Origin: Caulobacter sp.
GTDB lineage: Bacteria; Pseudomonadota; Alphaproteobacteria; Caulobacterales; Caulobacteraceae
DNA: 49,186 nucleotides
Direction of reading: 5' to 3'
Assembly: GCA_026225565.1 (NCBI GenBank)
Contig: JAMFTA010000035.1
Coordinates: 1 to 49,186 of the forward strand
The notes beneath the pieces are model-generated. The model was given only the letters and a program-made list of their open reading frames with translations, searched no databases and was not told the DNA's origin. The number at the start of each line of letters is the position of its first letter. Positions within the stretch are counted from its first letter, which is position 1. Shown in pieces: positions 1 through 16,147 of this stretch. The position numbers were made by a program, and so were the translations under genes.

Positions 1-1658
1 AGGGCGGCGATCACCACCATGGAGAGGCTGAGCATGATGCACTGGGTGACGCCAGCGATGATGGCCCCGCGCGCCGCCGGCAGCTCCACCTTCCACAAGA
101 GTTGCTGTTTGGTGGCGCCGAAGGCTTGGCCGGCCTCGATCAGGGCCTTGGGCGCCGAGGCTATACCCATCTGGGTCAGGCGGATGGGCGCGGGCATGGC
201 GAAGATCACCGTGGAGATCAGCCCCGGCACCACGCCCAGGCCGAACAGCACCAGGGTGGGGATCAGGTAGACGAAGGTCGGCAAGGTCTGCATCAGATCC
301 AGCACCGGGCGCAAAGCCTCATTCAGCCAGGGCCGATGCGCCGCCGCAATGCCGATCGGCACCCCCAAGACGGTGGAGACAAAGGCGGACACCAGCACCA
401 AGGAGAGGGTCTCCACCGTCTCGCCCCAATAGCCCTGGTTGACGATGAACAGCAAAGCCAGCACCACGAAGATCGACAGCGGGATCGAGCGCCGGATGAC
501 GTAGGCGACGAGGCCCAGCGCCAGGATCAGCACCGGCGCGGGAATCGCCGTCAGGAGCGCGGTCAGCCCATTCACCCCTCCGCCGGCGACGAAGGAAATC
601 CCGTCGAACAAGGGCGTCATGTGCCGTTTCACCAGCTCGATGCCATAGGCCACGGCATTCCCGACCGGCAGCTTGTGCGCCACCAGCCAATCCTCGAAGC
701 GAAAGCCGGCGGTCGGCGCGGCCGCCGCATGGAAGGCTGCCAAGGCGGGACGTCCGTCCATCGTGGTCACCCCATCCAGCCACGCCGGCAAGACGCTGGG
801 GTTCGCCTTCAGCCAGGTGCGCGCGGCCGCCAGGGGCGCCAGGCCCTTGTCGAGGATCAGCCCCATCAGCTGGCTTTCGCCGATCAGGCTGAAGGACAGA
901 TTCTTCAAGAGGCGCCCGACATTGGGACATTGCTGCAGATAGCCTGAGCGGACATTGGTGTAGATCACCGCGCCGCCGAAGTCCGGGCCGAAATAGGCGT
1001 CGCCGCCGGTGAGGTAGCGCATGTCGAAGCGCATGTTCATCGGGTGAGGCGCCCAGCCCAGGAACACCACCGGCTTCTTGGCCTTATAGGCTCGCTCCAC
1101 CTCGGCCAACATGCCCTGCTCGCTGGACTCCACCAGTTTGAAGTCGCCCAGGCCAAAGGCGTTCTTGGCGATGATGTCAAGCACGTGGCGATTGCCGTCG
1201 TTGCCGGCCTCAAGGCCGTAAACCACGCCGCCAAGTTGATCCTTGAAGCGCTTGATATCGCTGAAATCCGTCAGCCCAGCTTCGTAGAGATAGGCAGGAA
1301 CGGCCAGAGTGTATTTGGCGCCCACCAGATTGGGTCGCACCACCTGCACCGCACCGTCGGCCATGAACGGAGCGCGGTCGTGGGCCTGGGAGGGCATCCA
1401 GTTGCCGAGGAAGACGTCCACGTCCCTGTTCTTCATGGCGGCGTAGGTGACCGGCACCGACAGCACGGTGACCTTGGGCCGATAGCCCAGCTTGTCGAGG
1501 ATCACGCTGGCGACGCCGGTGGTGGCGGCCACGTCGGTCCAGCCGATGTCGGCCAGCCGCACACTGCCGCAGGCGGCCGGATCGGCGGCGGCGGGCGCGG
1601 CGCCCAAGAGCCCCGTCCAAAGCACCCCGAGGAGGGCGCATAGTCCAAGTCCCCTCAT
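1..1658 (-). CDS. choXW: Choline ABC transporter: periplasmic binding protein fused to permease (3' end outside window)
   Basis: This protein captures choline in the periplasm and carries it through the inner membrane. A signal peptide (about residues 1-26, ending APAAA) precedes a ProX/ChoX-type binding domain to about residue 315. A membrane-spanning OpuAB/ChoW-type permease begins near 375 and shows an EAA-like loop (EAGQAFGATKQQ, about 509-520). As I recall it, the Sinorhizobium ChoX ligand box is W43, D45, W90, Y119, N156 and W205. Matching residues here are W40, D42, W87, Y116, N153 and W202, all offset by three, which supports choline rather than generic betaine binding. The ATG at 1658 follows a GGGAGA ribosome site. 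The gene runs off the left edge, so about 552 codons are visible. Its ATPase (choV) lies 5.3 kb away instead of in the same operon. Confidence 0.9.
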   Translation of the reverse strand, partial: MRGLGLCALLGVLWTGLLGAAPAAADPAACGSVRLADIGWTDVAATTGVASVILDKLGYRPKVTVLSVPVTYAAMKNRDVDVFLGNWMPSQAHDRAPFMADGAVQVVRPNLVGAKYTLAVPAYLYEAGLTDFSDIKRFKDQLGGVVYGLEAGNDGNRHVLDIIAKNAFGLGDFKLVESSEQGMLAEVERAYKAKKPVVFLGWAPHPMNMRFDMRYLTGGDAYFGPDFGGAVIYTNVRSGYLQQCPNVGRLLKNLSFSLIGESQLMGLILDKGLAPLAAARTWLKANPSVLPAWLDGVTTMDGRPALAAFHAAAAPTAGFRFEDWLVAHKLPVGNAVAYGIELVKRHMTPLFDGISFVAGGGVNGLTALLTAIPAPVLILALGLVAYVIRRSIPLSIFVVLALLFIVNQGYWGETVETLSLVLVSAFVSTVLGVPIGIAAAHRPWLNEALRPVLDLMQTLPTFVYLIPTLVLFGLGVVPGLISTVIFAMPAPIRLTQMGIASAPKALIEAGQAFGATKQQLLWKVELPAARGAIIAGVTQCIMLSLSMVVIAA

Positions 1659-1873
1659 GCAGCATGGTCTCCCCGACGGCGCCGGTTGATTAGTCGTTCA
1701 ACACCTGCGCCCTGGCAATCCCCAGCGCGACGGCGGCGGCCGAGCCTTCGGGGTCTGCGATCATCCGCCCCTCCCCACCGACAGCCTGTGCAAATATAGC
1801 GCAGCCCCGCCCGCTTGAACGGCCCCGCGCCTGGGCCGATTGCCAAGACCCGTCATTGATCGTTCATTCAGCC
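1659..1873. promoter_or_regulatory. Divergent promoter region between choXW and gbdR-like gene
   Basis: This roughly 215-bp gap separates two outward-facing genes and should carry both promoters. I found no strong palindrome or recognisable sigma-70 pair. By analogy with Pseudomonas, the AraC-type regulator transcribed from here may bind this region, but no site can be pointed to. Confidence 0.45.
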
Positions 1874-2917
1874 ATGCCCCCCAATCCGCGCACGCCCTGC
1901 CCAAGCCCCCCGCCCCCGCCTTCCTTGAAGGTGGGCCTAATCCTAGCCGACAACTTCACCCTCTCCGCCTTCGCCCTATTCACCGATCATCTGCGGCTGG
2001 CGGCGGACGAGGGCGACATGAGCCGGCCGGTGCGGGCGCAGTGGTCGATCATGTCCCATCGCTTCGAGCCGATCCGGGCCAGTTGCGGGGTGATGCTGGC
2101 CCCCACCGACCGCTTCATCGACCCCGCGACCCTCGACTATGTGGTGGTGGTGGGCGGGGTGCTGCACGCCGGGCGTCAGGTGGACGAGGCGACCAACCGC
2201 TATCTGCAAGCGGCGGCAAAGGCCGGGGCCACCCTGGTCGGCCTGTGCACCGGTAGTTTCATCCTCTGCCGCGCGGGGCTGATGGCGGGGCGGCGATCCT
2301 GCGTCAGCTGGTATCACCACCAGGATTTCGTCAATGAGTTCCCCACCCATGCGGTGACCGCCGATCGGCTGTTTCTGGAGGATGGCGACCGCATTACCTG
2401 CGCCGGAGGCGCCGGCACCGCCGATCTGGCCATCTGCCTGATCGAGCGTCATCTCGGCCGCGCCCTGGCCCAGAAGGCCAGCCAGGTCTTGCTGTTCGAG
2501 CGCGCCCGCGCCGGCAGCGAGGCCCAGCCTCACCCCCCCGTCGCTGGGACCCTGGCCGACCCCCGGATGCGCAAAGCCCTGCTGATCATGGAGCAGACCC
2601 TAGCCCATCCACTCACGGTGGCGGAGGTGGCCCGCCAGCTCGGCCTGTCGGCGCGCCACTTCGAGCGGCTGTGTCAGGCGACGGTGGGGATGAGCCCCGG
2701 CGCCCTCTACCGCAAGATGCGCCTGCGCTACGCCCATTGGCTGGTGGACAACACAACCCGTTCGGTCACCGACATCGCCCTGGACTCAGGCTTTGCCGAC
2801 GGCTCGCACTTCTCGCGCCAGTTCAAGGAAAGCTACGGCCTGTCCCCCTCCATGCGCCGCCGCCAGCCCCGCGCGGCCACGGACAGCGACGCCGCCGGAA
2901 TGCGGGTGTTCGGCTAG
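1874..2917 (+). CDS. gbdR: GbdR-like transcriptional regulator (GATase-1-like domain + AraC HTH)
   Basis: This is a GlxA-family activator. A DJ-1/PfpI (class I glutamine amidotransferase-like) sensor domain covers about residues 15-205 and contains the nucleophile-elbow segment VGLCTGSFILCRAGLM. A two-helix-turn-helix AraC domain follows at about 235-335 (LTVAEVARQLGLSARHFERL, then VTDIALDSGFADGSHFSRQF). Pseudomonas GbdR has this architecture and activates glycine betaine demethylation genes. The placement here between choXW and betA, in a cluster containing gbcAB and the sarcosine and dimethylglycine enzymes, fits that role. The start is uncertain: ATG at 1874 is preferred over an upstream in-frame TTG at 1856, and neither has a convincing ribosome site. 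A related carnitine (CdhR) or arginine-type regulator cannot be excluded from sequence alone. Confidence 0.85.
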   Translation: MPPNPRTPCPSPPPPPSLKVGLILADNFTLSAFALFTDHLRLAADEGDMSRPVRAQWSIMSHRFEPIRASCGVMLAPTDRFIDPATLDYVVVVGGVLHAGRQVDEATNRYLQAAAKAGATLVGLCTGSFILCRAGLMAGRRSCVSWYHHQDFVNEFPTHAVTADRLFLEDGDRITCAGGAGTADLAICLIERHLGRALAQKASQVLLFERARAGSEAQPHPPVAGTLADPRMRKALLIMEQTLAHPLTVAEVARQLGLSARHFERLCQATVGMSPGALYRKMRLRYAHWLVDNTTRSVTDIALDSGFADGSHFSRQFKESYGLSPSMRRRQPRAATDSDAAGMRVFG

Positions 2918-2935
2918 GCCCAGGCTGGGCGACGC

Positions 2936-4597
2936 TCAGCGCTGAGCGACCTCCCAGCCCTCCGCTACATAGTAGGGCGCGTTCGACGTCGGCAGGGCGG
3001 GCCGGCCGAGGACGATGTCCGCCGCCTTTTCCGCCAGCATGATGGTGGGCGCGTTCAGATTGCCGGTGGTGAGCGACGGCATGATGGAGGAATCCACGAC
3101 CCTGAGACCTAAAAGCCCGATCACCCGCGTCTCGGCATCCACCACCGCCATCGGATCGTCGGCCCGCCCCATCTTGCAACTGCAGGAGGGGTGGTAGGCG
3201 CTCTCCACCTTGGCCCTGATGAAGTCGTCGATCTCGTCGTCGGTCTGCACGCCGACGCCGGGCTGGATTTCCCGCGCGGCGTAGGGGGCGAAGGCCGGCT
3301 GCGCGAAAATCTCGCGGGTCAGGCGCACGCAGGCGCGCATCTCGGTCCAGTCGTCCGCGTGGCTCATATAGTTGAAGCGGATGATCGGCTTGTCGGTCGG
3401 TTTGGCCGAGGCCAGGCGCACCGATCCCCGGCTCTTGGAGCGCATGGGGCCGACGTGGACCTGGAAGCCATGCTCCTTGGCGAGGGACGCGCCGTCGTAG
3501 CTCACCGCCATGGGCAGGAAATGGTACTGGATGTCCGGATAGCGCACCTCCGCCCGGCTGCGGATAAAGCCGCAGCTCTCGAAATGGTTGGTGGCGCCGA
3601 GGCCCCCGCGGGTCAGCAGCCAGCGGGCGCCGATCAGCGCCTTGGCGAGCGGATTGGTCGCCGAATAGAGGGTGATCGGCTGCTTGCAGGCGACCTGGAA
3701 ATAGAACTCTAGGTGGTCCTGCAGGTTTTCGCCGACGCCGGGCAGGTCATGCACCACGTCGATGCCGTGCCCCTTCAACTCCGCCGCCGGCCCTACCCCC
3801 GATAGCTTCAGCAACTGCGGGGAATTGATCGGGCCGCCGGCCAGGATCACCTCCCGCCGCGCCTTCACCGTATGGACGCCGCCGCCGCGACGGTACTCCA
3901 CACCGGTCGCCCGCTTCCCCTTAAAAGTCAGACGGGTGGCCAGGGCGTGGGTCTTCACCGACAGATTAGGCCGCTTCATCGCCGGGCGAAGGTAGGCGTT
4001 GGCGGCGCTGGAGCGGCGGCCCTGGCCCACGGTCATGTCCATGGGACCGAAGCCCTCTTGCTGATAGCCGTTGATGTCCCCCGTCACCGGATAGCCGGCC
4101 TCTTCCCCCGCCTTCACCCAGGCGGCGTGCAGGGGATTGTCGAGGGCGCCATAGCGGGTCTGCAGGGGCCCGCAATCCCCGCGATAGGCGTCCCCGCCCC
4201 CCGCCTTGGTCTCAGAGCGCTTGAAATAGGGCAGGACGTGCCGATAGCCCCAGCCTAAGGCCCCCTCCTCCTCCCATCGGTCGAAATCCAAGGGATTGCC
4301 GCGCACATAGACAAGGCCGTTGATCGAGGACGAGCCGCCCAGCACCTTGCCGCGCGGAGTGTGCAGGCGCCGCCCGCCCAGGTGCGGCTCCGGCTCGCTC
4401 TCGTAGAACCAATTATATTTGGGCATGTTCATCGGGATCGACAGCGCCGTAGGCATCTGGATGAAGATCGAGCGATCCGATCCCCCATACTCCAGCACGA
4501 GCACGCTGTGCCGACCGTCCTCGCTCAGCCGGTTGGCCAAGACGCAGCCGGCCGAGCCCGCGCCGACGATGACGTAATCGAAAACCTCATCTGACAC
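2936..4597 (-). CDS. betA: Choline dehydrogenase
   Basis: This GMC-family flavoenzyme oxidises choline to betaine aldehyde, usually at the inner membrane with electrons passed to the respiratory chain. It has the N-terminal FAD-binding motif [20 protein letters not shown] (about 6-25), the GMC signature near 80-95 ([18 protein letters not shown]) and the second signature [17 protein letters not shown]. The C-terminal region has the catalytic histidine segment [12 protein letters not shown] and the closing motif about 30 residues later ([26 protein letters not shown], shown in part). At 553 residues it matches E. coli BetA in size. The start is GTG at 4597, 12 bp after the betI-betB stop, so the two are one transcript. 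It converges on the GbdR-like gene. Confidence 0.95.
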
Positions 4598-4609: not shown

Positions 4610-6664
4610 CTAGTAGGGCGAATCGACATCGCCCAGGGCGACATAGACGCTCTTCAGCTGGGTGTAATGCTCGATGGCGGCGCGGCCGTTTTCCCGCCCG
4701 AGCCCCGACATCTTCGACCCGCCGAATGGCAGCTCAACGGGGGTGATGTTGTAGTGGTTGATCCAGCAGGTCCCCGCTTCCAGCCGCGCGATCACCCGGT
4801 GGGCGCGGGTCAGGTCGTTGGTGAAGACCCCGGCGGCGAGGCCGAACTCGGTGGCGTTGGCGCGGGCGATCACCTCCTCCTCGTCGTCGAAGGCAAGGAT
4901 AGTCATCACCGGACCGAAGATCTCTTCGCGGACGATGGTCATGTCGTCGTGGCAGTCGTCGAACACCGTGGGGGCGACGAAGAAGCCTGCCGAGAGGGCG
5001 CCGTCGACAACCCGTTCCCCGCCCGCTAGCATCCGCGCCCCCTCCGCCCGGCCGCGGGCGATATAGGCCAGCACCCGGCGCATGTGATCCTCGGAGATCA
5101 GGGCGCCGACCTGGGTGGCGGGATCGGCCGGATCGCCGACGGTCATGGCCTGCACCCGGGCGACAAGCTTCTCGATAAAGGCGACCTTGATGCTGCGATG
5201 TACGAACACCCGGGTGGCGTTAGAGCAGACCTCTCCCGCGGAATAGAAGTTGGCCAAAAGGGCGCCGGAGACGGCGTTATCCAGCTTGGCGTCTTCGAAC
5301 ACGATCAGGGGGGATTTGCCGCCGAGTTCCAGCGTGACATATTTCAGCGTCTCTGCGGCGTCGCGCATCACCGCCTTGCCGGTGGAGACCTCGCCGGTCA
5401 GCGACACCTTACGGATCTTGGGGTGGCGAGTGAGCAGCCGGCCGGTGTCGGCGAAACCCTGCACCACCTGGAACACCCCATCCGGCAGGCCGGCCTCGGT
5501 GTAGATCTTGGCGAGTTCGATGGCGGTCAGGGGGGTCAGCTCCGCCGGCTTGAAGATCATGGCGTTGCCGCAGGCTAAAGCCGGAGCCGACTTCCAGCAG
5601 GCGATCTGCAAGGGATAGTTCCAGGCGCCGATGCCCGCGGTGACTCCAAGCGGCTCGCGCCGGGTGTAACCGAAGGCATCCGGCCCGAAATCCAGATGCT
5701 CGCCGGATAGGCTGGCGGCGAGCCCGGCGTAATAGTCCAGGCAGTCGGCGCCGGAGATCACGTCCACCACGCTGGTTTCCTGGATCGGCTTGCCAGTGTC
5801 GCTGGTCTCCAGCGCCGCCAGCTCGTCGTTGCGCGCGCGCAACAGATCGGCGGCGCGGCGCAGCACCTTGCCCCGCTCCGCGCCTGTCATCGCGGCCCAC
5901 AGGCGCTGACCGGCGACAGCCCTTTGCACGGCAGCGTCCACCTCGGCGGCGCCGTCAACCGTCAGGGTCGCCAGCACCGCGCCGGTGGCGGGATTGAGGG
6001 TGGTGAAGCTCGTCCCGGCGCGGGGCGAGCCGACGGCGACGCCTTCGACCGGCGGCGGCGCCAACACCTTCAACCGATTGTCGATAAAGGCGGTCAGGAG
6101 CCCCCGCGCCGTTTCGCTGTCCGCCTCGATCCAGTTGGAGAGGGCGGCCCGCAGCCATACGCCGTCGATCATCGCCGCGATCATCGCCGCGAGGCTCTTG
6201 GCGTCCTCCAGCGGCATCATCATCCGCAGGTCGTGGCGCAGGTTCGACAGCATTCGCCGCTGATAGATGGCCTGCACCCGGCGCAGGCCGTCCACATGTT
6301 GAACCTGCCCCCAAAAGGCCAGCCAGGCGGCGCCCGTGCGCTGGTCGAACTCCTCGGCCGCGAGATTGGCGTCGATCACCGCCTGGATGCGGGCGCGGGG
6401 TGTGCGGGCCAGGGCCAGGCGAGAGCGCACTCCGTTGGCCACGCGCGTGAGCATGGTGCGGAAGGCCGCCTCCAACATGCCGTCCTTGTCGCCGAAATAA
6501 TGGGCGACCAAGCCGGCGGACACGCCGGCGCGACCGGCGATCTGCCCCAGGGTGCTAGCGACGTAGCCCACCGCCGACAGGCTATCGATGGTGGTTTCGA
6601 TCAGCTGAGCGCGCCGGCCGTCTTCCAGCCCTGCTTTTGCCACGCCTTGCGTTTGCCGAACCAC
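4610..6664 (-). CDS. betI-betB: BetI-BetB fusion: TetR-type choline repressor joined to betaine aldehyde dehydrogenase
   Basis: This single uninterrupted frame of 684 residues holds two proteins that are normally separate. Residues 1 to about 200 are a BetI-type TetR repressor, with the helix-turn-helix near 38-60 (TLGQIAGRAGVSAGLVAHYFG) and a full ligand domain ending around FIDNRLKVLAP. After a linker of about 15 residues, 217-684 is a nearly complete NAD-dependent betaine aldehyde dehydrogenase. Visible catalytic residues are N349 (AWNYP), E446 (LELGGK) and C480 (GEVCSNATRVF). Only the first 15 or so residues of a normal BetB are missing. The enzyme part converts betaine aldehyde to glycine betaine; the regulator part should repress the bet genes until choline binds. 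The start is GTG at 6664 with GGAG eight bases upstream. I see no good internal ribosome site at the junction. The start lies 15 bp from a BetI-like palindrome. Confidence 0.93.
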   Translation of the reverse strand: MVRQTQGVAKAGLEDGRRAQLIETTIDSLSAVGYVASTLGQIAGRAGVSAGLVAHYFGDKDGMLEAAFRTMLTRVANGVRSRLALARTPRARIQAVIDANLAAEEFDQRTGAAWLAFWGQVQHVDGLRRVQAIYQRRMLSNLRHDLRMMMPLEDAKSLAAMIAAMIDGVWLRAALSNWIEADSETARGLLTAFIDNRLKVLAPPPVEGVAVGSPRAGTSFTTLNPATGAVLATLTVDGAAEVDAAVQRAVAGQRLWAAMTGAERGKVLRRAADLLRARNDELAALETSDTGKPIQETSVVDVISGADCLDYYAGLAASLSGEHLDFGPDAFGYTRREPLGVTAGIGAWNYPLQIACWKSAPALACGNAMIFKPAELTPLTAIELAKIYTEAGLPDGVFQVVQGFADTGRLLTRHPKIRKVSLTGEVSTGKAVMRDAAETLKYVTLELGGKSPLIVFEDAKLDNAVSGALLANFYSAGEVCSNATRVFVHRSIKVAFIEKLVARVQAMTVGDPADPATQVGALISEDHMRRVLAYIARGRAEGARMLAGGERVVDGALSAGFFVAPTVFDDCHDDMTIVREEIFGPVMTILAFDDEEEVIARANATEFGLAAGVFTNDLTRAHRVIARLEAGTCWINHYNITPVELPFGGSKMSGLGRENGRAAIEHYTQLKSVYVALGDVDSPY

Positions 6665-6924
6665 CGAGAGTCTCCAAAATTGAATGATTATTCAATCGAT
6701 GCGCCGCTGCGTGCCCGATTGCAAAAGCTGAGATAATCAAGAGTATTCCGGTCTATACTCGGGCGCCGGAGTCGCAACATGCTGGTATTTTTGGCACACA
6801 AACGCCCTGGCCTCAAGGACGACCGGGCGGCGCGGGCGGCGGGCGATTAAATGCTTGATCAATTGTTGTGCGCGCCGCGAATGCTAAGCTCGCGTCGCGG
6901 CTGCGGCCGAGGCAGGAGGTGTGC
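6665..6924. promoter_or_regulatory. Divergent betI-betB / choV promoter region
   Basis: This 260-bp gap is AT-rich compared with its surroundings. Besides the BetI-like palindrome it holds a second perfect inverted repeat, GAGTAT-N8-ATACTC (6741-6760), and a small TTGATCAA palindrome (6855-6862) that overlaps BetI-like half-sites. A possible sigma-70 promoter toward choV is TTGCAA (6719-6724), 17 bp, then AGTATT (6742-6747), which would overlap the second repeat. The promoter call is tentative. Confidence 0.4.
6679..6696. promoter_or_regulatory. BetI-type operator palindrome
   Basis: The sequence ATTGAAT-GATT-ATTCAAT is a perfect inverted repeat with 7-bp arms and a 4-bp spacer. It sits 15 bp upstream of the betI-betB start codon, in the divergent gap with choV. 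TetR repressors bind such sites as dimers, and known BetI sites are AT-rich ATTGA/TCAAT palindromes. It is therefore probably the autoregulatory operator; the assignment is inferred from position and symmetry. Confidence 0.7.
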
Positions 6925-8139
6925 ATGACGACCGCCCTTGAGTTTCGCGATGTGGACATCCTGTTCGGCGGCGGGCGCGGCTCGGGCGGCGCCCGCGCCA
7001 TGAAGACCGCCCTCGACTTGCTGGATCAGGGGCAGAGCCGAAGCGAAATCTCCGATCGGACGGGAGTCATCGTCGGCGTCTGCGGAGCCAATCTGACGGT
7101 GGCCGAGGGCGAGATCTGCGTGCTGATGGGCCTCTCCGGCTCTGGAAAATCCACGCTTCTGCGCGCCGCTAATGGCCTCAACACCGCCTCCCGCGGTCAT
7201 GTGTTGGTGCGCAATGGCATGGGCATGACCGACGTCAGCGATTGCGACGAGGCCGCCTTGCGCCAAGTGCGGCGCGAGCGGGTGGCCATGGTGTTCCAGC
7301 AGTTCGGCCTCCTGCCCTGGCGAACGGTGCGCGAGAACGTCGGCTTCGGTCTGGAGCTGCGCGGCTCCGAGCGCAATGAGCGGCGGCGGGTAGTGGACGA
7401 GAAGCTGGCCCTGGTCGGCCTCAGCCCATGGGCGGACCGCTACGCCAGCGAACTTTCGGGCGGGATGCAGCAGCGGGTGGGCCTGGCGCGGGCTTTCGCC
7501 ACCGACGCCGACATCCTCTTGATGGACGAGCCGTTTTCGGCGCTCGACCCCCTGATCCGCGCCAAGCTTCAGGACGAGCTCCTGGCCTTGCAAGAACGGA
7601 TGCGCAAGACCATCCTCTTCGTCAGCCACGATCTGGACGAGGCGTTGAAGCTCGGCGACCGCATCTGCATCATGGAGGGCGGACGGATCATCCAGACCGG
7701 CACGGCCGACGACATCATGCTGCGCCCCGCCGACGACTACGTGGCCGAATTCGTCGCCCACATGAACCCCCTGACCGTGCTCACCGGCGGCATGATCATG
7801 CGCCGGGCGGAGGACCTGCCCAGAAGCGGCGAGGCCGTGCTCTTGGACACGGCGGGTCGCTATCGCTTGACTCTCGATGCACAGGGCGCGCCCTTGGCCT
7901 TGGCCCTGGACGGGGCGCCGCAGCTTCTCGCCACCTTCATCGAGGAGGACGGGACGCCTAGCGGGCGGGTGATGATGGCGGAGGCCAACGCCTCTCTGCG
8001 CATCCTGATCGAACTGCGTCAGGGTTCCGGCCACCCCATCGTCTTGGTGCAGGACGGGGCGATGGTGGGTGTCTGCTGCCAGAACGAGATCCTGCAGGCG
8101 CTCACCGCTGGACGCACCGCCGCCCAAAACGCCGCCTAG
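6925..8139 (+). CDS. choV: Choline/glycine betaine ABC transporter ATP-binding protein
   Basis: This is the ATPase that should drive the ChoX-ChoW fusion. It is of the ProV/OpuAA/ChoV type: Walker A GLSGSGKSTLLRAANGL, Q-loop in VFQQFGLLPWRTVRENV, signature LSGGMQQRVGLARAFA, Walker B ILLMDEPFSALDPL and switch histidine FVSHD. The C-terminal region of about 110 residues is in the place of the CBS-like regulatory domains of this family but looks degenerate. The ATG at 6925 is preferred because AGGAGG lies at 6914-6919; an upstream in-frame GTG at 6868 has no such site. It is transcribed divergently from betI-betB, so it probably shares the BetI-controlled region. Confidence 0.9.
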   Translation: MTTALEFRDVDILFGGGRGSGGARAMKTALDLLDQGQSRSEISDRTGVIVGVCGANLTVAEGEICVLMGLSGSGKSTLLRAANGLNTASRGHVLVRNGMGMTDVSDCDEAALRQVRRERVAMVFQQFGLLPWRTVRENVGFGLELRGSERNERRRVVDEKLALVGLSPWADRYASELSGGMQQRVGLARAFATDADILLMDEPFSALDPLIRAKLQDELLALQERMRKTILFVSHDLDEALKLGDRICIMEGGRIIQTGTADDIMLRPADDYVAEFVAHMNPLTVLTGGMIMRRAEDLPRSGEAVLLDTAGRYRLTLDAQGAPLALALDGAPQLLATFIEEDGTPSGRVMMAEANASLRILIELRQGSGHPIVLVQDGAMVGVCCQNEILQALTAGRTAAQNAA

Positions 8140-8158: not shown

Positions 8159-8222
8159 CGGCCGGCCCCGAAGGACCGGCCGCAGCGCTGACCGGGCGCC
8201 GAAGCCCCCGGTTGCGGCGCCC
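8159..8222 (-). terminator. Probable terminator of the TonB receptor gene (two hairpins)
   Basis: Two inverted repeats lie just past the receptor stop: GGGCGCCG/CGGCGCCC (8194-8201 with 8215-8222) and CGGCCGG/CCGGCCG (8159-8165 with 8176-8182). Read on the minus strand, the second is followed by CGTTTTCGTTT, a T-rich tail expected of a rho-independent terminator. It may also stop choV transcripts arriving from the other side. Confidence 0.6.
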
Positions 8223-8228
8223 TTGGAT

Positions 8229-10478
8229 TTAGAACTGCTTGCGCAGGGTGATGAAGGCCTCGCGGGGGGCGCCCGCCTGCAGGGTCTGATAGTCGCCCGT
8301 GAAGGTGTAGCCATTGGTGCCCATGGTGGCGACGTACTTCTTGTCGAGGACGTTGGTGATGTTGCCCTGGATCTCCACGCCCTTCAGCACGCCCGGACCG
8401 CTGAAGCGGTAGCCGGCGCTGAGGTTGAAGATGGTGCGTCCGCCGACCGACTGATCGTTGTCGTAAGTGTAATAACGCTTGGACATGTAGTCGCCGTCGA
8501 CATTGGCGAACAGCGAACCATCGTCATAGGCCAATGACAGGTGGGCGATGTTCTTAGGGCTGTCGACCACCGTCTTGCCGCCGGTGGGTTGAGTCCCGAC
8601 GTTCTGATCATAGCGGGAGTCGTTGTAGGCGTAGGAGCCTGAGATCGTCCAGTTGTGAATGATTTTCCAGGCGCCCGTCAGCTCGACCCCCTTGGTGGTG
8701 ACCGATCCCACGTTGGCCAGAACCACTGGCGCACCGATGATCGCCGCTCCGGACGAAACCCCCAAAAGGCGATTATCGAACTTGGTGTAGTAGCCGACGA
8801 TGGAGCCCTGCACCGGCCCCTCGTGGTAGCGGTAGCCGACCTCGCCGGTCTTGGACGTTTCGGGCTTCAGACTGCCCTTGATCGCGTCAAAGCCCGCTTG
8901 AGTGGTGGAGAAGGGGCCTTCGGTCTCTGCGCCGATGAAGGCGTTTTGATTTTGAGCATAGTCGGCGAACACTTCGCCGAAGTGGTGCAGGCTGTAGTTC
9001 ACGCCTACCTGCGGCAGGAAGTCGTCGCTGGCCTTGATCTCACCAGCAGCCAGACCCCCAACCCTTGATATAGCGGTAACATCGACGTCCTGGGTCTTGA
9101 AGCCGTAGTTCAGCTTGAGCTCATCGGTAATCTTCCAGGTATCTTGCAAATGGAACACCGTCGTGTCCGTAGAATACTCGCTGTACCTCTGGGTATAAAA
9201 TGGATCAATTTGGAAATCTAAATTATTACGATTTGATAGCGTCGAATTAAGTGCATAGTAACGCCGCGCTTCATTGAAGTTATTACGCTCATACCAAAAA
9301 CCACCTTCGATATCGTGGCCAGCGATCTTGTATTCCAAAGACCCTATGCCACCTTCACGCATGATATAGTACTCAGTAGTTCTCAGAGAAATCGGCGTAC
9401 CGTCCGGCGACGCCAAGTAGGGCGTATCCCATGTGCCTTGGCCGGTGTTGTTGTGACCGTAGCCCGTCAGGTGAGCCGTCAAATTGTCGAGGATGTCCCA
9501 ATCAACGGTAAAGCCGCCGAGGGTGTCTTTGCGCAGGCCCGACCCATTGTAATAGACCGCGTCGATCGCATCGCCGTCCTTCGTATTGGTGAAGGGCGCC
9601 GGATAGGCGGTGTGGTTGTTATAGGCATTCGCCAACGCGATCGCGAGAGGTGCGTTGTTGCTGATATTATCCAGCTTGTAGCCGAATTGATTGATCAGCG
9701 AGCGGTTTAGATCCTGATAGTCGTTCTCTGCGCGATCAGAATAGTTGACGAAGGCTGTGACCTTGACCTTGTCGCCGATCGGCTGGACGATCTTGCCGTT
9801 GAATTGATCCTGCTTCTGCTTGCCATAGCCCTTCCACTTGTCGGATTCCTGGTGGCTGTAGCTCAGATAGGCCGTACCCCCGCCGGGCAACTCGCCGGTG
9901 TCCAGACGGATGAACTCGTGCTGGGTGCTGTAGCTGCCGTAGGTCCCCTCCACATCGACGCCGAAGTCCCTGGACGGCGCGCGCGAATGGAACTCGATAA
10001 CACCGCCGAGATTGGAGGTGGAGGCCGCGCTAAGTCCGCCGGTGCCTTCGGACAACTGGCTGGCGCCGAGATTTTCCGATGAGATGGCGCGCGAGATGTG
10101 CAGGCCGTTGTCGTTGCCGTAGAACATATTGCCCAGCGGCACGCCGTCGAGGGTGAAGCCCATGTGTTCTTGGTCGAAGCCGCGCACCGAGATGCGGGTC
10201 GCCCACTCATAGGCGCCGAAGGGATCGGACGACTGGAAGTTCACGCCGGGAAGGGATTGCAGCACCTTGATCGGGCTGGTGCCGGGCACGACCTCTTCGA
10301 TCTGCACGGCGCTGATGGTCTGGATCTGGCGGGTCTGGCCGGCGCCCATGACCACGATCTCAGGCAGTTCGGCGGCGCTCGCCGTCACTGGCGCGCTGGC
10401 CGCGTCGGCGGCGAAAACCGGGCTGACACAAAATGGCATGACGCCCATGGCGCAGCCGAGCAGCGTTCTCTTCAACAT
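8229..10478 (-). CDS. TonB-dependent outer-membrane receptor
   Basis: This is an active-transport outer-membrane channel of 749 residues. It has a signal peptide (about 1-23, ending SPVFA), a TonB-box-like segment LPEIVVMG (about 38-45), a plug domain (about 55-165, with ISVRGFDQEHMGFTLDGVPLG) and a 22-strand-type barrel ending in the outer-membrane signature RKQF. The ATG at 10478 follows GGGGAT. The cargo cannot be read from sequence. Its neighbours are a choline transporter, a phosphonate-type importer and betaine catabolic genes, so a quaternary-amine or phosphonate compound is a reasonable guess; no siderophore or cobalamin genes are nearby. The stretch at about 9180-9300 is clearly AT-richer than the rest of the gene and encodes extracellular-loop/strand sequence. 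Confidence 0.93.
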   Translation of the reverse strand: MLKRTLLGCAMGVMPFCVSPVFAADAASAPVTASAAELPEIVVMGAGQTRQIQTISAVQIEEVVPGTSPIKVLQSLPGVNFQSSDPFGAYEWATRISVRGFDQEHMGFTLDGVPLGNMFYGNDNGLHISRAISSENLGASQLSEGTGGLSAASTSNLGGVIEFHSRAPSRDFGVDVEGTYGSYSTQHEFIRLDTGELPGGGTAYLSYSHQESDKWKGYGKQKQDQFNGKIVQPIGDKVKVTAFVNYSDRAENDYQDLNRSLINQFGYKLDNISNNAPLAIALANAYNNHTAYPAPFTNTKDGDAIDAVYYNGSGLRKDTLGGFTVDWDILDNLTAHLTGYGHNNTGQGTWDTPYLASPDGTPISLRTTEYYIMREGGIGSLEYKIAGHDIEGGFWYERNNFNEARRYYALNSTLSNRNNLDFQIDPFYTQRYSEYSTDTTVFHLQDTWKITDELKLNYGFKTQDVDVTAISRVGGLAAGEIKASDDFLPQVGVNYSLHHFGEVFADYAQNQNAFIGAETEGPFSTTQAGFDAIKGSLKPETSKTGEVGYRYHEGPVQGSIVGYYTKFDNRLLGVSSGAAIIGAPVVLANVGSVTTKGVELTGAWKIIHNWTISGSYAYNDSRYDQNVGTQPTGGKTVVDSPKNIAHLSLAYDDGSLFANVDGDYMSKRYYTYDNDQSVGGRTIFNLSAGYRFSGPGVLKGVEIQGNITNVLDKKYVATMGTNGYTFTGDYQTLQAGAPREAFITLRKQF

Positions 10479-11042
10479 TGATTTATCCCCTTTTTGCCCA
10501 GGCGGCTGCGCCGCTCAAGACGTCGAATTACGCTCTATCGCCTGAAACGATGGTCCCCCGCCGAGCGGGGATGGCGTACTTTTTTCGTGCAACAGTTTTA
10601 TTACTTATTTTCGACTTACCCAGCGTCCGCGCCGCCAGAAGGCCGACGAGGCGAAAAAATCAAACCGATAGCGCCGCCCGACGATTGAACGAGTGTTCAC
10701 CAAAAACCCAAATCCGCCATTGGGACCGCCGACGCTCGCGCGCGATCGATGGCTATGGATGAAAATCCAGCGTTATTTTCGCTAAATATGCCCAAAATGA
10801 TACAAGTTTAGGCGAAAGATGCAGCCAGGCAACAGGTCAGGATAAATTGAAGGGTCATTCAACTTATCCACCAGACTCCACCCTGCGAAGCCGCTGGAGG
10901 CGGGCGATTCAGCGACCGATGCACGGCCCGGCGCACCCATAGCCAGCGCTATCGGGGGAAAATCTATGCTGAACTGTACTTCGCGCATGTGACGGATCGA
11001 TGATGGCCGGTCCGCGCCGCGCGGCCGGCGCCATCGGTCGCC
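10479..11042. promoter_or_regulatory. 564-bp upstream region of the TonB receptor; no gene
   Basis: I see no supportable gene here; the short open frames lack coding character. The part nearest the receptor is AT-rich and probably holds its promoter and leader. It contains a compact hairpin CCCCGC-CGA-GCGGGG (10556-10570), an operator-like inverted repeat (10841-10868, listed separately) and a GC-rich stem-loop just past the permease stop (arms GATGGC 11002-11007 and GCCATC 11030-11035), which may end the phnS2-T-U2 transcript. I found no match to the conserved boxes of cobalamin, TPP or FMN riboswitches by eye. Confidence 0.5.
10841..10868. promoter_or_regulatory. Operator-like inverted repeat upstream of the TonB receptor
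   Basis: The arms GATAAATTGAA (10841-10851) and TTCAACTTATC (10858-10868) form an 11-bp inverted repeat with one mismatch and a 6-bp spacer, about 360 bp before the receptor start. There is no T-tract on the minus side, so a protein-binding site is more likely than a terminator. Which regulator would bind is unknown. Confidence 0.4.
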
Positions 11043-12740
11043 TTAGCCCCGGCTGGCCTGGGGAATCGGCGCCAGGCGGCGCCTCAGCACGCCCGCGCCC
11101 CACTGGCCGGCGATCCGCACCGCCAGGTTCACGTAGAAGATCAACATGCCCATGGCGGCGGCGGGGCCCATGTCGCCGGCGTCGTCCATATTCAGCACCG
11201 CCACGGAGGCCAGCTTGAAGTCGGCGGGATAGAGGAAGACCACCACCGACACCGTGGTCATGGCGTTGACGAACAGATAGAGGGCGATCTCGACGAGCGC
11301 CGGCGCACAGATGGGCGTGGCGATGCGCCAGAACACCGTCGCGGGCCCTCGCCCGAGCATCGCCGCCGCCGGCTCCATCTCCGGGTCCAGCGCCTTCAGC
11401 GCCGACATCGAGGTCAGATGCGCCACGGTATAGAAATGAGTGACCGTGGCGATCACCAGGATGGCGAAGCCGCCATAGAGGAAGTGAAACGGGTTGGCCG
11501 GATCGTCGAAGAAGAGGGCATAGGCCAGCCCCAGAGCCAGCCCCGGCGCCGCAGCCGGCAGCAGGGCCATCAGCGAGAAGGCGTGGCGCAAAGCCGGCGT
11601 CCCGCGAGTGCGTTGGGTCACATAGGCGCCGGCGAAGGCTACGGCCGCGCCGACGACGGCGACAGCCAGGGCGAGCTCGACAGAATTCAAAATGCTGATC
11701 CAGCCTCCGTCATAGCGGCCGAGATCGTAACTGGTGGCGCTCGGGCTAAGGTCATAGGGCCACATCTTCACCAGGGCGACCATCTGGCAGACCGCCAAGA
11801 GCCCGACGATGGCCAGAGCGATGGCGCCGCAGCCGAGCCATAGGCCCCCATCGCGCAGTCGGCTGGGGCTTGCGACAAACCCCGTCGAGCGGGCGGAGAT
11901 CATGGCCGACTGGCGACGCATGGCCATGCGTTCCAGACCCATGAACAGGGCGCTGGGGGCCAAGAGCAGCATGGCCACCACCGCGCCCATCTCGAAATTC
12001 TGCTGCCCCAACACCTGTTTATAGACATCCAGGGCGAGCACGTTGAAATCGCCGCCGATCACCACCGGCGCGCCAATATCGGTGATGGCCAGGGTGAAGA
12101 CCACCATGGCCGCCGACACCAGGCCGTAGCGGGCTGCGGGGAAGGTGACGGTCCAGAAGATGCGCCAAGGGCTGGCTCCCAGCATCTGCGCCTGCTCGTA
12201 GAGCCGACCGTCGGCGGCGGAGAGGGCGGTGCGCAAGAGGATCACCGCATGGGGAAACGCCCCCACCACCTCAGCCAAAAGCACCCCGCCCGCCCCATAG
12301 ATGACATGGCCGTGCAGCCACGGGGTCAAAAGGCCCTGGCGACCGAACAGATAGACCAGGGCCATGGCCGGCAGGAGCGAGGGCGCCAACAAGGGCAGCG
12401 TGCCGATAGCAGCCAAGGCGCCCTTCAGCCGGATGTTGCTGCGCTCCAGTCCATAGGCGAACAGGAAGGCCAGCGGCAGGGTCGAGACGATGGCTAGGCC
12501 GCCCAGGACGCCGGTGTCGATCAGCGATCGCCGCAAGGAGGGCGAGGAAAGATATCGTCCATAGTAGGCCAGGGTGATCCCGCCGTCCGGGCCGCTGACC
12601 GACCGCCAGGCTAGAACCCCCAAGGGCGCGATGAGGGCGATCACGGCGCAGGCGCAGTAGAGCAGCGCCACCGCGCCTGCACCGCCGCCGAACCGAGCGA
12701 ATTTCGGTGAAAACGCAAGTCGTGTGGCGATCCCGGCCAT
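11043..12740 (-). CDS. phnU2: ABC transporter permease, 2-aminoethylphosphonate type (two fused permease halves)
   Basis: This is an inner-membrane channel of 565 residues made of two tandem binding-protein-dependent permease domains (about 1-285 and 290-565). Each has several hydrophobic helices and an EAA-like loop (YEQAQMLGASPWRIFWTV near 180; MEPAAAMLGRGPATVFWRI near 450). This duplicated layout is shared by iron (FbpB) and putative 2-aminoethylphosphonate importers. The neighbouring binding protein points to the latter. The start at 12740 is one base from the stop of the ATPase gene, so the three genes are translated from one message. The substrate is inferred from family resemblance only. 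Confidence 0.85.
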   Translation of the reverse strand: MAGIATRLAFSPKFARFGGGAGAVALLYCACAVIALIAPLGVLAWRSVSGPDGGITLAYYGRYLSSPSLRRSLIDTGVLGGLAIVSTLPLAFLFAYGLERSNIRLKGALAAIGTLPLLAPSLLPAMALVYLFGRQGLLTPWLHGHVIYGAGGVLLAEVVGAFPHAVILLRTALSAADGRLYEQAQMLGASPWRIFWTVTFPAARYGLVSAAMVVFTLAITDIGAPVVIGGDFNVLALDVYKQVLGQQNFEMGAVVAMLLLAPSALFMGLERMAMRRQSAMISARSTGFVASPSRLRDGGLWLGCGAIALAIVGLLAVCQMVALVKMWPYDLSPSATSYDLGRYDGGWISILNSVELALAVAVVGAAVAFAGAYVTQRTRGTPALRHAFSLMALLPAAAPGLALGLAYALFFDDPANPFHFLYGGFAILVIATVTHFYTVAHLTSMSALKALDPEMEPAAAMLGRGPATVFWRIATPICAPALVEIALYLFVNAMTTVSVVVFLYPADFKLASVAVLNMDDAGDMGPAAAMGMLIFYVNLAVRIAGQWGAGVLRRRLAPIPQASRG

Positions 12741-12741
12741 C

Positions 12742-13797
12742 TCAGTCGACCGCGAACAGCCGGAGGCGCTGCGGCGGCAAGACGAGCCTCAGGGCGTCGT
12801 CGCTCAGGGGCGCGCAATGGGCGGGCACGTCCACCAGCAGGGGGACCGCGCCGACGCCCGCCAGCACATCCAGCCGCACCACGGCGCCGAGAAACTCCCG
12901 GCGGTGAATGCGCGCGCCAACGCCATCGGCCATTCCAGGCGGTGCAAGGACGATGGCTTCGGGCCTGATCCCCAGCTGCACGGCCTCGCCGATGGCGAAG
13001 CCTGCGGTGGCGGCCGCCATGGAGCCGAGGCCAGCCGCCTCCACCACGCCGGCGGCGCTCACCCGCGCCGGCAGCAGATTCATCGCTCCCACAAATCCGG
13101 CGACGAAGGCCGAGGTGGGGGCGTCATAGATGTCTTGCGGGGCGCCCGACTGCTCGACCCGGCCGGCGCGCATCACCGCGATGTGGTCGGCGATGGCCAA
13201 GGCCTCGGCCTGGTCATGGGTGACCATCACCGTGGTGACGCCGAGGCGCCGCTGCAGATCCTTCAACTCGCCGCGCAGGCGCTCGCGCACCTGGGGGTCC
13301 AGCGCCGACAGGGGCTCGTCCAGCAGCAACACCCGCGGCTCGGGCGCCAAGGCGCGAGCAATGGCCACCCGCTGTTGCTGGCCGCCGGAGAGCTGTACCG
13401 GGCGCCTGGCGCCAAAGCCCGGCAGGCCCACCATCTGCAACAGCTCGTCCACGCGCCGCTGACGCACGAGGGGCGAGGTCTTCCGCGAGAGGCCAAAGGC
13501 GATGTTCTGACTGACCGTCATGTTGGGAAAGAGGGCGTAGGACTGGAACACCATGCCCACCCCGCGCGCAGCCGCCGACAGGCCGGTGATGTCGCGCCCC
13601 TCGCTCAGCACCACCCCCGACGTCGCCGGCTCCAGCCCCGCCAGGACCCGCAGGCAGGTGGTCTTGCCGCAGCCGGACGGGCCGATCAGACAGGTGAAGG
13701 CGCCGCGCTCGATCTCAAGATCGACGCCGTCCAGCGCCACCGCCGCCCCGAACCGCTTGCTGAGCCCCTGCACCGACAACATGGCGGGGGCGCTCAT
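12742..13797 (-). CDS. phnT: ABC transporter ATP-binding protein, 2-aminoethylphosphonate type
   Basis: This ATPase of 351 residues powers the adjacent permease. It has Walker A GPSGCGKTTCLRVLAGL (about 38-54), Q-loop MVFQSYALFPNMTV, signature LSGGQQQRVAIARALA, Walker B VLLLDEPLSALDPQ, switch histidine MVTHDQAEAL, and a C-terminal TOBE-like domain (from about 240) as in the PotA/FbpC/PhnT group. It overlaps the binding-protein stop by 4 bp (ATGA) and precedes the permease by 1 bp, a tight operon. Sequence alone does not separate phosphonate, iron and polyamine importers of this group, so its assignment follows the binding protein. Confidence 0.88.
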   Translation of the reverse strand: MSAPAMLSVQGLSKRFGAAVALDGVDLEIERGAFTCLIGPSGCGKTTCLRVLAGLEPATSGVVLSEGRDITGLSAAARGVGMVFQSYALFPNMTVSQNIAFGLSRKTSPLVRQRRVDELLQMVGLPGFGARRPVQLSGGQQQRVAIARALAPEPRVLLLDEPLSALDPQVRERLRGELKDLQRRLGVTTVMVTHDQAEALAIADHIAVMRAGRVEQSGAPQDIYDAPTSAFVAGFVGAMNLLPARVSAAGVVEAAGLGSMAAATAGFAIGEAVQLGIRPEAIVLAPPGMADGVGARIHRREFLGAVVRLDVLAGVGAVPLLVDVPAHCAPLSDDALRLVLPPQRLRLFAVD

Positions 13798-14843
13798 TCC
13801 TTGTGCGCCGCCTTGCCCTCATAGCGTTTGCTCCATTCGGCCAGGATGCGGACCCGGTTGCGCGCGGTCCAGGCCAGGTCCATCGGCGCCAGGCGGTTGG
13901 CCAGATCCGTGGGCAGATAGGGCGCGGGCTTATTAAAGCGCGTCACGCCGACCATGGAGAAGCTGTCGGCGTAGAGCTTCATGGCGTCATCGGACATGGC
14001 CCAATCGGTGAAGATCTGCGCCGCCTTGGGGTGAGCCGCGCCGGCCACGACGGCGGAGGCCTCAAGATCCCAGCCCACGGCGTTCGGCGGCACGACCACC
14101 TCGATCGGCGCCCCCTCCCCCTTGGTGCGCGAGGCGCGGAAATCGAAGGATATGCCGATCGGCACCTCGCCTCGGGCGGCGTCCTTACAGGGCTTGGACC
14201 CCGAGGGGTCGTAGCTGACGATATTCTTGTCCAGCCGGTCCATATAGTCCCAGCCCTTGGTCTCGCCCCAGGCCTGCAACCACCCGTTCACCGTCAATAG
14301 GCCCGTGCCGGACGAGGCCGGATCGGGCATGGAGATGGCGCCCTTGTAGATGGGCTTGGTCAGGTCTTCCCAGGTTCGCGGAATGGGCAGGCCGCGCTTG
14401 GCCGCCTCGATGGTGTTGACGCAAATGGCCGAAGAGAACAGCGCCTCGCCGTTCCAGTATGGGGGCTGTTCGGGGTCGCGAAAGCGCTGGTCCAGCCGAT
14501 CTCCGCCAAGCGGCGTATAGGGGGCCAACACCCCCTGCTCATCCAGTTCGGAGATGGAGGTGGCGGCGGTGGCGAACACCGCGTCCACGCGCGGCGCCTT
14601 CTTTTCCGCCAAGAGCTTGGCGGTCAGGACGCCGGTGGACTCGCGGACCCAGACCAGTTCGATATCCGGATGGGCCTTTTTGAAGGCGGCGGCGTACATC
14701 GGCAACTGGTCCGCCTCGGCCGCCGTATAGACCACCACCCGCTTTTGCGGCGCGCAGGCGCCGACCAGGGCCAGCGCCGACAGCAGCAACAGCCGCGGCG
14801 CCGCCCTGGCCGCCTGTTTTGCAGCAATTATTGAACGGCCCAT
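13794..14843 (-). CDS. phnS2: ABC transporter substrate-binding lipoprotein, putative 2-aminoethylphosphonate binding
   Basis: This periplasmic binding protein of 349 residues has a lipoprotein signal (LLLLSALALVGAC, lipobox VGAC near residue 30), so it is probably anchored to the inner membrane. The early segment VVVYTAAEADQLPMYAAAFK and the following WVRESTGVLTAKLLAEK resemble the putative 2-aminoethylphosphonate-binding family; iron-binding FbpA proteins share the fold. The ATG at 14843 follows a GTGGGG stretch. It is the first gene of phnS2-phnT-phnU2. No aminoethylphosphonate-degrading genes (phnW, phnX, phnA) occur in the window. The ligand could therefore be a related compound, for instance an N-methylated one, which would suit the betaine genes around it. 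That is a hypothesis. Confidence 0.85.
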   Translation of the reverse strand: MGRSIIAAKQAARAAPRLLLLSALALVGACAPQKRVVVYTAAEADQLPMYAAAFKKAHPDIELVWVRESTGVLTAKLLAEKKAPRVDAVFATAATSISELDEQGVLAPYTPLGGDRLDQRFRDPEQPPYWNGEALFSSAICVNTIEAAKRGLPIPRTWEDLTKPIYKGAISMPDPASSGTGLLTVNGWLQAWGETKGWDYMDRLDKNIVSYDPSGSKPCKDAARGEVPIGISFDFRASRTKGEGAPIEVVVPPNAVGWDLEASAVVAGAAHPKAAQIFTDWAMSDDAMKLYADSFSMVGVTRFNKPAPYLPTDLANRLAPMDLAWTARNRVRILAEWSKRYEGKAAHKE

Positions 14844-15055
14844 CAATCCCCACCGGCGAAATTCTAAATGTTTGTATCACGGATCAAGCTTGGCGCCCCG
14901 GCCGACGCGGCAGCCACTGACGAATCAGCTGTCCGGCGCCCCGCGGCGGGCGCCGGGGTATGATCGGCGCCTACTCCCCTGGCGCCGTTATGTGTCAGTT
15001 TTATCCGCATCTGGTCCGAGCTTGGCCGGGCGGCCGGGAAAGGCCGCCGGGGTCA
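14844..15055. promoter_or_regulatory. Gap between gbcB and phnS2 with GC-rich hairpins
   Basis: This region of about 210 bp lies downstream of gbcB and upstream of phnS2. It contains GGCGGCC-N6-GGCCGCC (15029-15048), just past the gbcB stop, and CCGGCGCCC-N6-GGGCGCCGG (14933-14956). Neither has a T-tract on the minus strand, so they are stem-loops that may help stop or stabilise the gbcAB message. The phnS2 promoter should lie between 14844 and 14930. Confidence 0.4.
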
Positions 15056-16147
15056 TCAGCGTTCGATGACCAGATCGCTGGTGGGTCTGGAGCAGCAGAT
15101 CAGGATCATGCCCTGGTCGATCTCTCGTTGGCGGATGCCGCCGGCGTGGGTCATCTCCACCGTGCCGGAGATGAGCTTGCTCTTGCACGTCCCGCAGAGG
15201 CCTTTGGTGCAGGACGAGGGGAGCCGCATCCCGGCGCTCTTAGCCGCCTCCAGCACAAAGGTCTGCTCGTCCACCTCGATGGTGCGGCGCGATTTGGTGA
15301 ACTCCACCTTGTGGGCGGCGGCGTGGGGCCGAGGTGCAGCCGTGCGCACCTCGGCCTGCTCCAGCGTACTGAGCTCGCCGAAAACGAAGCTCTCCTCGTG
15401 ATGCCGGGCCATGTCGAAGCCGGCCTCCGCCAGCAGGGCGCACACCCCGGCCATATAGCCGGAAGGACCGCAGACGAAGATCTCCCGCTCCATGAAGTCC
15501 GGCGCGATCAGGGACAGCATGGAAAGGCTGAGCCGGCCGGTGAAGCCGTCCCACGGCGCGCCGCCGCCCGACGCCTCGCAGATGGTGGCGGTGCGAAAGC
15601 CCGAACGCGCGCGGGCCATCAGAGCCAGCTCGTCGCGGAAAACGATATCGGCGGGAGAGCGAGCGCTATGGACGAAGACAACATCCTGGCGGCTCGCCAG
15701 ATCGTGCTGGGCCCGCGCCATGCTCATCAGGGGCGTGATCCCGCTGCCGGCCGAAAGGAACAGCAGCTTGCGGTCAGCGTGCCCGTCGCTGGTGAACTCG
15801 CCCATGGGGCCGAGTGCGTTCAGCCTATCGCCGACGCGAAAATGATCGTGCAGCCAATTTGATGCGGGCCCGCCCGGCGTGCGCTTGACGGTGATCGAAA
15901 CCGCATAGGGGCGGGTCGGGCTGGATGAGAGGGTGTAGCAACGCTGCACCCCCTGCCCGCCCCCACCTTGGCTTGCCAGGGGAATCTCGAAGGTCATGAA
16001 CTGGCCCGGCCGGTAGGCGAAGAGGTGCGGCTCAGGCGCCTGCAGGATGAAGGTGCGAACGTCGTGGGTCTCGTCCCGCACGGCGCGGCAAACCAGGGTC
16101 TCGTCCCTGTCCGGATCCCAATAGGGCGGCGCGGCCGGCGTGCTCAA
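15056..16147 (-). CDS. gbcB: Glycine betaine demethylase reductase subunit (ferredoxin-NAD(P) reductase type)
   Basis: This protein passes electrons from NAD(P)H to the Rieske oxygenase GbcA. Its 363 residues form an FAD-binding reductase domain (RCYTLSSSP for flavin), a nucleotide-binding domain (LLFLSAGSGITPLMSMAR; IFVCGPSGYM) and a C-terminal plant-type [2Fe-2S] ferredoxin domain with cysteines in SSCTKGLCGTCKSKL and ILICC. This order matches GbcB of Pseudomonas. The start is TTG at 16147, overlapping the gbcA stop (TTGA); no ATG is available without losing conserved sequence. Translation is probably coupled to gbcA. Confidence 0.92.
   Translation of the reverse strand: MSTPAAPPYWDPDRDETLVCRAVRDETHDVRTFILQAPEPHLFAYRPGQFMTFEIPLASQGGGGQGVQRCYTLSSSPTRPYAVSITVKRTPGGPASNWLHDHFRVGDRLNALGPMGEFTSDGHADRKLLFLSAGSGITPLMSMARAQHDLASRQDVVFVHSARSPADIVFRDELALMARARSGFRTATICEASGGGAPWDGFTGRLSLSMLSLIAPDFMEREIFVCGPSGYMAGVCALLAEAGFDMARHHEESFVFGELSTLEQAEVRTAAPRPHAAAHKVEFTKSRRTIEVDEQTFVLEAAKSAGMRLPSSCTKGLCGTCKSKLISGTVEMTHAGGIRQREIDQGMILICCSRPTSDLVIER

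Follow-up and report, generated by a model that had tools for sequence, protein, structure and literature searches.

The stretch of DNA analysed here, referred to below as the window, comprises 49,186 nucleotides of a Caulobacter sp. contig. On its reverse strand lies one open frame of 684 amino acids (4610-6664), in which a BetI-type repressor (approximately residues 10-200) is followed by a linker and a betaine aldehyde dehydrogenase (approximately residues 215-684). Downstream of this betI-betB fusion is the choline dehydrogenase gene betA (2936-4597, reverse strand; TIGR01810, 835.2 over a cut-off of 732.1). Divergent from the fusion is choV, the gene for a choline ABC transporter ATPase (6925-8139, forward strand; TIGR03415, 516.2 over 483.75 at 6907-8136), whose inferred ATG at 6925 is preceded by AGGAGG at 6914-6919. 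A putative choXW frame (1-1658, reverse strand), which joins a choline-binding protein to a permease and runs off the window start, owes its name to our reading of the translation and to an OpuAC-plus-permease ORF of locus L060. The choline importer is split, choXW standing about 5 kb away from the choV gene beside the fusion, and a BetI box is found at both units. Between choXW and betA is a gene for a GbdR-like AraC-family regulator (1874-2917, forward strand, start inferred; best NCBIfam match GbdR, 191 bits, under the cut-off of 480). Beyond choV lie a gene for a TonB-dependent receptor (8229-10478, reverse strand; Pfam PF00593 and PF07715) and an operon for an ABC importer of the PhnS2-T2-U2 type (11043-14843, reverse strand; TIGR03261, 417.5 over 392.75; TIGR03262, 609 over 593.25), the ATPase of which scores below its own cut-off (398.3 vs 457.7). 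The NCBIfam name of this importer type refers to putative 2-aminoethylphosphonate uptake. The region 15056-26666 contains a GbcA-like Rieske oxygenase (444.4 bits, below the cut-off of 670), its reductase and an oxidoreductase with FAD and folate domains, which suggests further glycine betaine breakdown.

Both halves of the fused protein are recognised by specific models. Residues 1-201 pass those for BetI (TIGR03384, 208.6 over 201.3 bits; PRK00767, 197.9 over 118), the BetI-type C-terminal domain PF13977 scores 85.4 bits, and the betaine aldehyde dehydrogenase model NF009725 gives 786 over a cut-off of 593; TIGR01804, compared with the whole fusion, reaches 667.7, just under its cut-off of 668.6. 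Pfam finds TetR_N, TetR_C_6 and Aldedh only. The AlphaFold monomer (mean pLDDT 82.3) has a helical N-terminal domain and an alpha/beta domain, both confident, and a low-confidence linker (residues 204-212), with residues 1-12, 329-333 and 634-670 likewise low. The best 80 relatives among the matches listed align from residue 21 or earlier to residue 681 or later, and the frame is open in all 80 related loci, so that the fusion is not an assembly accident. Residues N349, K372, E446 and C480, the catalytic residues of the dehydrogenase half, are invariant in 40/40 aligned fusions (40 of the 81 open ones, window included). A stricter pair of active-site motifs is present in 74/80 relatives; the string LELGGK[SN] is missing in L070, L074, L089, L114, L115 and L117, the last three of which retain E446 in the alignment, which left out the first three. 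The active site of the fusions is apparently intact, judging from these residues. Genome records of alpha- and gammaproteobacteria that carry a fused repressor-enzyme number at least 80. In the tree of BetI domains all fused rows fall together, in a group that also includes one truncated member (support 100/99), and the sampled fusions are, on this tree, one clade.

The gap between the fusion and choV attracted attention by its palindromes. The three sequences reported in the first-pass annotation, ATTGAATGATTATTCAAT at 6679-6696, GAGTATTCCGGTCTATACTC at 6741-6760 and TTGATCAA at 6855-6862, are there letter for letter. Their geometry, taken alone, is at chance level: at least one perfect inverted repeat with 6-base arms (spacer 0-12) occurs in 63% of 1000 dinucleotide shuffles of the 241 bases at 6665-6905, and at least one with 7-base arms in 24%. 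Since shuffled sequence often yields such repeats, geometry proves nothing, and identity, conservation and context have to decide. The shuffles speak for the reading that all the palindromes arose by chance in a gap richer in AT; it fails at 6679-6696 and 6846-6863, where conservation and a wider set of boxes stand against it, and for the gap as a whole we regard it as very improbable.

The palindrome at 6679-6696 (ATTGAAT-N4-ATTCAAT, hereafter box 1) lies 14 bases before the GTG start of betI-betB and is a putative operator for that promoter. What sets it apart from chance is its identity and conservation. Within 330 bases upstream of the fusion, counted in 78 of the 80 relatives together with the window and L118 (L067 and L089 have too little upstream sequence), the motif TTGAA-N6-TTCAA occurs with at most one mismatch in 77/80 regions, against 1.1 expected in shuffles, and with at most two mismatches in 80/80, against 9.3; the relatives were picked by similarity to the window, and their kinship makes these counts non-independent. 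Three control motifs stay near background in the same 80 regions. The whole genome (3.69 Mb) has 25 sites within three mismatches of box 1, compared with seven for the reversed control, and this 49-kb contig, with 1.3% of the genome bases, holds 4/25 of them and two of the three that have at most two mismatches. The proposal that the first palindrome is a BetI operator is therefore borne out by sequence and conservation, as far as a predicted operator goes, and box 1 is supported as a BetI-type operator.

The short sequence TTGATCAA exists, as the first-pass annotation stated, but not as a separate element: it is part of a longer, imperfect box, ATTAAATGCTTGATCAAT (6846-6863, hereafter box 2), and by its sequence it belongs to a second BetI box in front of choV, a putative operator at the choV promoter. 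Boxes 1 and 2 score 31.5 bits, the top score, and 23.7 bits with the position weight matrix (PWM) described below, and carry the half-sites TTGA...TCAA of characterised BetI sites, box 2 with TTAA on one side. For phylogenetic footprinting the gap was compared with that of L064, a Caulobacteraceae metagenome-assembled genome (MAG) that shares the divergent arrangement of choV and the fusion with the window. Both boxes are kept there as islands in the gap, box 2 in the form CTTGATCAGACGTTTAAT (19.8 bits), and the GAGTAT repeat between them is not kept. In a gammaproteobacterial MAG, L058, choV is likewise divergent, and the two boxes present score 22.3 and 19.6 bits. The spacing that matters in the window is the 167 bp between the two BetI boxes (6679 to 6846), which replaces the earlier figures of about 60 and 110 bp.

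The PWM was built from 117 sites of the 80 upstream regions; box 1 is in-sample, and the other six boxes of the window and the E. coli site are out-of-sample, box 2 being absent from the training set because it has two mismatches to the training motif. In the window the PWM finds seven sites of at least 17 bits, all within the first 15 kb, with the next best at 9.2 bits; resampled windows average 0.017-0.033 such sites (about 0.02 expected). Over the 80 related loci, 139 boxes of at least 17 bits lie between -460 and +20 of the gene vs 5 elsewhere in 725 kb. In a 2-kb E. coli betI-betT stretch the PWM ranks ATTGATTGGACGTTCAAT first, at 25.6 bits, the next site reaching 1.8; we take this to be the footprinted BetI operator.

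The five further boxes in the window lie at uptake genes and at the GbdR-like gene. One is at the choXW promoter (1685-1702, 22.8 bits), where 26 bases separate it from the ATG at 1658, and one directly before the GbdR-like gene (1855-1872, 18.8 bits; ATG at 1874). Two are upstream of the TonB-dependent receptor (10846-10863, 23.8 bits, and 10684-10701, with 17.0 bits the weakest of the seven), which is a predicted BetI target. L064 has a box of 29.0 bits (7753-7770) about 425 bases upstream of its own TonB receptor (8178-10076), a protein 61% identical to that of the window over 594 aligned residues, and this supports the window receptor as a target. The last box (14830-14847, 21.3 bits) overlaps the start of the PhnS2-type importer operon, likewise a predicted target. 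The boxes suggest that the receptor recognises choline, or a compound that contains it, at the outer membrane, and the importer may carry a choline-related substrate; the box set thus gives both of them functions that can be tested.

The remaining palindrome, the GAGTAT-N8-ATACTC inverted repeat (6741-6760), behaves otherwise. It had been proposed as the operator of a second regulator; the GbdR-like protein would be a candidate, and a gene for it is indeed present in the window. The repeat has perfect 6-base arms, and its start is 64 bases away from box 1; at the same offset L064 carries a 6-base-arm repeat, AGAGCC-N9-GGCTCT, the letters GAG, CCGG and CTC aligning between the two. Moreover, some 6-base-arm repeat is found no more than 85 bases upstream of box 1 in 22/79 loci vs 12.6 in single-base shuffles, an excess that is a weak sign of a second site. 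Against this, the half-sites of the L064 repeat are different, and the repeats across the 79 loci share no evident sequence. GAGTAT-N8-ATACTC was found in one of the 80 fusion loci, the window itself, even when two mismatches were allowed; no enrichment was found in the genome (11 sites with at most two mismatches vs 17 for the reversed control) or in the window (three matches with at most three mismatches vs 4.04 expected). Nor is it a betI box, being absent from the PWM sites as well as conserved in only that 1/80 loci. On the locus, genome and window counts it was rejected as a conserved or regulon motif, and support for it as an operator was not found. The claim of a second regulator acting here is accordingly unsupported; we consider it very unlikely, and for 6741-6760 chance is the simplest reading.

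We think it highly probable that both boxes are operators of the fused BetI-BetB protein at divergent promoters, that repression is relieved by choline, and that five further boxes extend the same control to other genes; binding, inducer, oligomeric state and feedback are what we infer here, while the sequences, the conservation of the motif, the set of boxes, the fusion and the single clade of the sampled rows are observed. There would be one operator per divergent promoter, box 1 (6679-6696) for betI-betB-betA to the left and box 2 (6846-6863) for choV to the right. As long as choline is absent, the BetI domains would occupy both boxes and block transcription by steric repression; choline, the presumed inducer by comparison with known BetI proteins, would free them. 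At the five other boxes the same protein would repress choXW, the GbdR-like gene, the TonB receptor and the ABC importer, which would place uptake genes and an activator gene under one switch. Every induced enzyme molecule would carry its own repressor domain, and since repressor and enzyme are one chain under its own operator, repression should return as choline runs out. The GAGTAT repeat has no demonstrated part in this mechanism. Promoter positions are inferred, since no sigma-70-like promoter was found in 6600-6960 and TTGAC is infrequent: it lies 34-43 bases ahead of box 1 in 9/77 loci and 14 bases ahead of box 2 in 9/63.

The number of boxes was compared with the neighbouring genes in 79 fused loci with 460 bases of upstream sequence (L046, L067 and L089 were left out). 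A divergent gene was scored as a member of six seed families, drawn from these same loci, within 900 bp. Such genes occur in 64 loci, and 55 of them are choline transporter parts; nine are not choline transporters by family (five amino-acid permeases, three DAO and one MttB), which speaks against the proposed mechanism. In the locus of the last kind, L042, a gene of the MttB methyltransferase family (1864-3456) is divergent from the fused betI-betB gene, and two boxes are present. At least two boxes occur in 60/64 fused loci with a divergent gene vs 4/15 without one (Fisher p 1.6e-7, with relatedness ignored). Two boxes where a divergent gene exists fit one box per promoter. There are exceptions on both sides that count against the mechanism: four loci have one box despite a divergent gene (L049, L073, L090 and L096) and four have two boxes without a recognised one (L041, L054, L065 and L072), so that a divergent promoter does not always explain box 2.

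The alternative to independent operators is that the pair is bridged. Dehydrogenases of the BetB family are tetramers, and a tetramer of the fusion, with two BetI dimers, could hold both operators at once and loop the gap; repression would then be tighter than that by a free BetI dimer at one operator. We treat this reading, including its claim of tighter repression, as possible but doubtful. It draws on the 60/64 count and on a comparison with unfused loci. In the family to which the two closest unfused rows belong, 7/7 loci have one box, six of them with a divergent choX, and the PWM finds one box in each of eight unfused loci whose choX lies at a distance of about 290-375 bp (L149, L152, L156, L158, L164, L193, L194 and L195). 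Two of the fused two-box loci, L041 and L065, are also in its favour, the upstream gene found there being co-directional. When the box was defined as TTGA-N8-TCAA with at most one mismatch, at least two boxes were counted in 55/64 fused vs 4/19 unfused loci with a divergent gene, and with TTGAA-N6-TTCAA and at most two mismatches in 59/64 vs 4/19. However, the contrast fades with a pattern fitted to the unfused boxes (25/64 vs 3/19, p 0.096); the remaining two of the five pattern settings gave 13/64 vs 0/19 and 25/64 vs 2/19. Among the unfused betI loci from the sample of the taxonomic class (n=28), the PWM finds one box in 18, two boxes, 20 bases apart, in one, and none in nine, so that the PWM may miss sites there. 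The two sides of these comparisons differ in breadth: the unfused loci are an even sample of one class, to which one family was added, and the fused loci are the best 80 by similarity to the window.

Other observations also weigh against bridging. Since the fused rows are one clade, the association of the fusion with a second box goes back to one event, a single evolutionary coincidence, and may simply reflect shared history. One box is present in 11/15 fused loci without a recognised divergent gene. Box spacings range over 41-206 bp (median 152; 64 loci, outermost pairs), and in these related loci circular phasing gives R of 0.33 for a period of 10.0 bp, 0.18 for 10.5 bp and 0.04 for 11.0 bp, so that helical phasing, weak and dependent on the assumed period, was rejected as proof of looping. 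Of the earlier statement that the operator spacing suits a multimeric repressor, what stands is that fused loci with a divergent gene typically carry two boxes; the spacings and their phasing neither bear it out nor refute it. A second box inside the gene, seen in sphingomonad fusions (L114, L115 and L117, weaker in L110), was likewise rejected as support for looping: it encodes the shared peptide V-E/D-F-T-F-N.

A bolder extension of the bridging reading, which we put forward as a speculation we rather doubt, is that the fusion formed once as a bivalent “trigger enzyme”: the two BetI dimers of the tetramer would bridge the operators, substrate or cofactor binding in the enzyme half would aid release from DNA, and operator duplication would have accompanied the fusion. 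If this were true, the enzyme would sense its own pathway. Repression of each promoter by the fused protein at its own box remains the reading that we prefer, and the fusion permits a direct test of whether enzyme-state sensing or DNA bridging is added to an ordinary repressor.

Of 289 genomes sampled evenly from the class, 33 have BetI matches, at 37 places, and two of the 30 places fetched have long frames, the window and L163. In L163 (580-2073, reverse strand) BetI is joined to a shortened dehydrogenase that matches only positions 26-195 of the 461 of the Pfam profile; two boxes are kept, and a betA-like frame follows. The dehydrogenase remnant is probably inactive, and the product is possibly a regulator with a pseudoenzyme tail. 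L192, from the same genus, also has a BetI-BetB fusion, but two frames share its dehydrogenase part, through either sequencing error or decay.

In two genomes of the window's family (L121 and L122), a 74%-identical dehydrogenase is a separate gene with betA adjacent, and it follows a different TetR gene, whose product is only 29-30% identical to the BetI domain; no BetI box of at least 15 bits was found in either locus. The fusion was here either lost or never formed. In an unfused sister family (G217 C1, 548063-550141; L155), betI and betB are adjacent, with one TGA inside the joint match, and such adjacency is a likely pre-fusion arrangement. No match to the fusion was found at 1e-100 in two genomes of the window's genus (G001 and G002), and in the tree the window BetI domain groups with MAG rows that bear the titles Gammaproteobacteria, Steroidobacteraceae or Proteobacteria; together these suggest acquisition by horizontal transfer.

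Palindromes in choline promoters are known targets of BetI proteins (PMC12442346, PMC7824335, PMC4744692). In Ruegeria pomeroyi, BetI boxes occur in choline promoters, the BetI1 box being ATTGACG*CGTCAAT, and one divergent gap contains two palindromes to which BetI2 binds (PMC12442346). BetI1 and BetI2 are separate BetI proteins, whereas the regulator of the window is fused; the BetI2 palindromes share a flank and lie off the betI box consensus (PMC12442346), whereas the window has two consensus-type boxes 167 bp apart. E. coli BetI resembles the window system in that a TetR repressor of the BetI type serves a divergent choline promoter, and the betI-betT site responds to the motif of the fused clade with the score given above. 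In E. coli, however, betI and betB are separate genes with one high-scoring site in the 2-kb stretch, as against one chain and two boxes in the window. The operators are thus ordinary in kind, and what is new is the fused regulator together with the two-box gap. No paper on a BetI-BetB fusion was found in the open-licence literature among the matches listed (titles and beginnings of abstracts).

The joining of a catabolic enzyme with a regulator has its counterpart in proline catabolism. DNA-binding PutA proteins have a ribbon-helix-helix domain. The fusion was rejected as a PutA-type trigger enzyme on its Pfam domains, TetR_N, TetR_C_6 and Aldedh alone; its pathway is different, and its DNA-binding part is of the TetR/BetI kind. 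The likeness lies in the design: PutA is a catabolic enzyme and a DNA-binding regulator of its own gene among others (PMC9132996), and in the fusion, too, enzyme and DNA-binding regulator are one protein. By this analogy, the BetI-BetB fusion may work like PutA, though it is not PutA.
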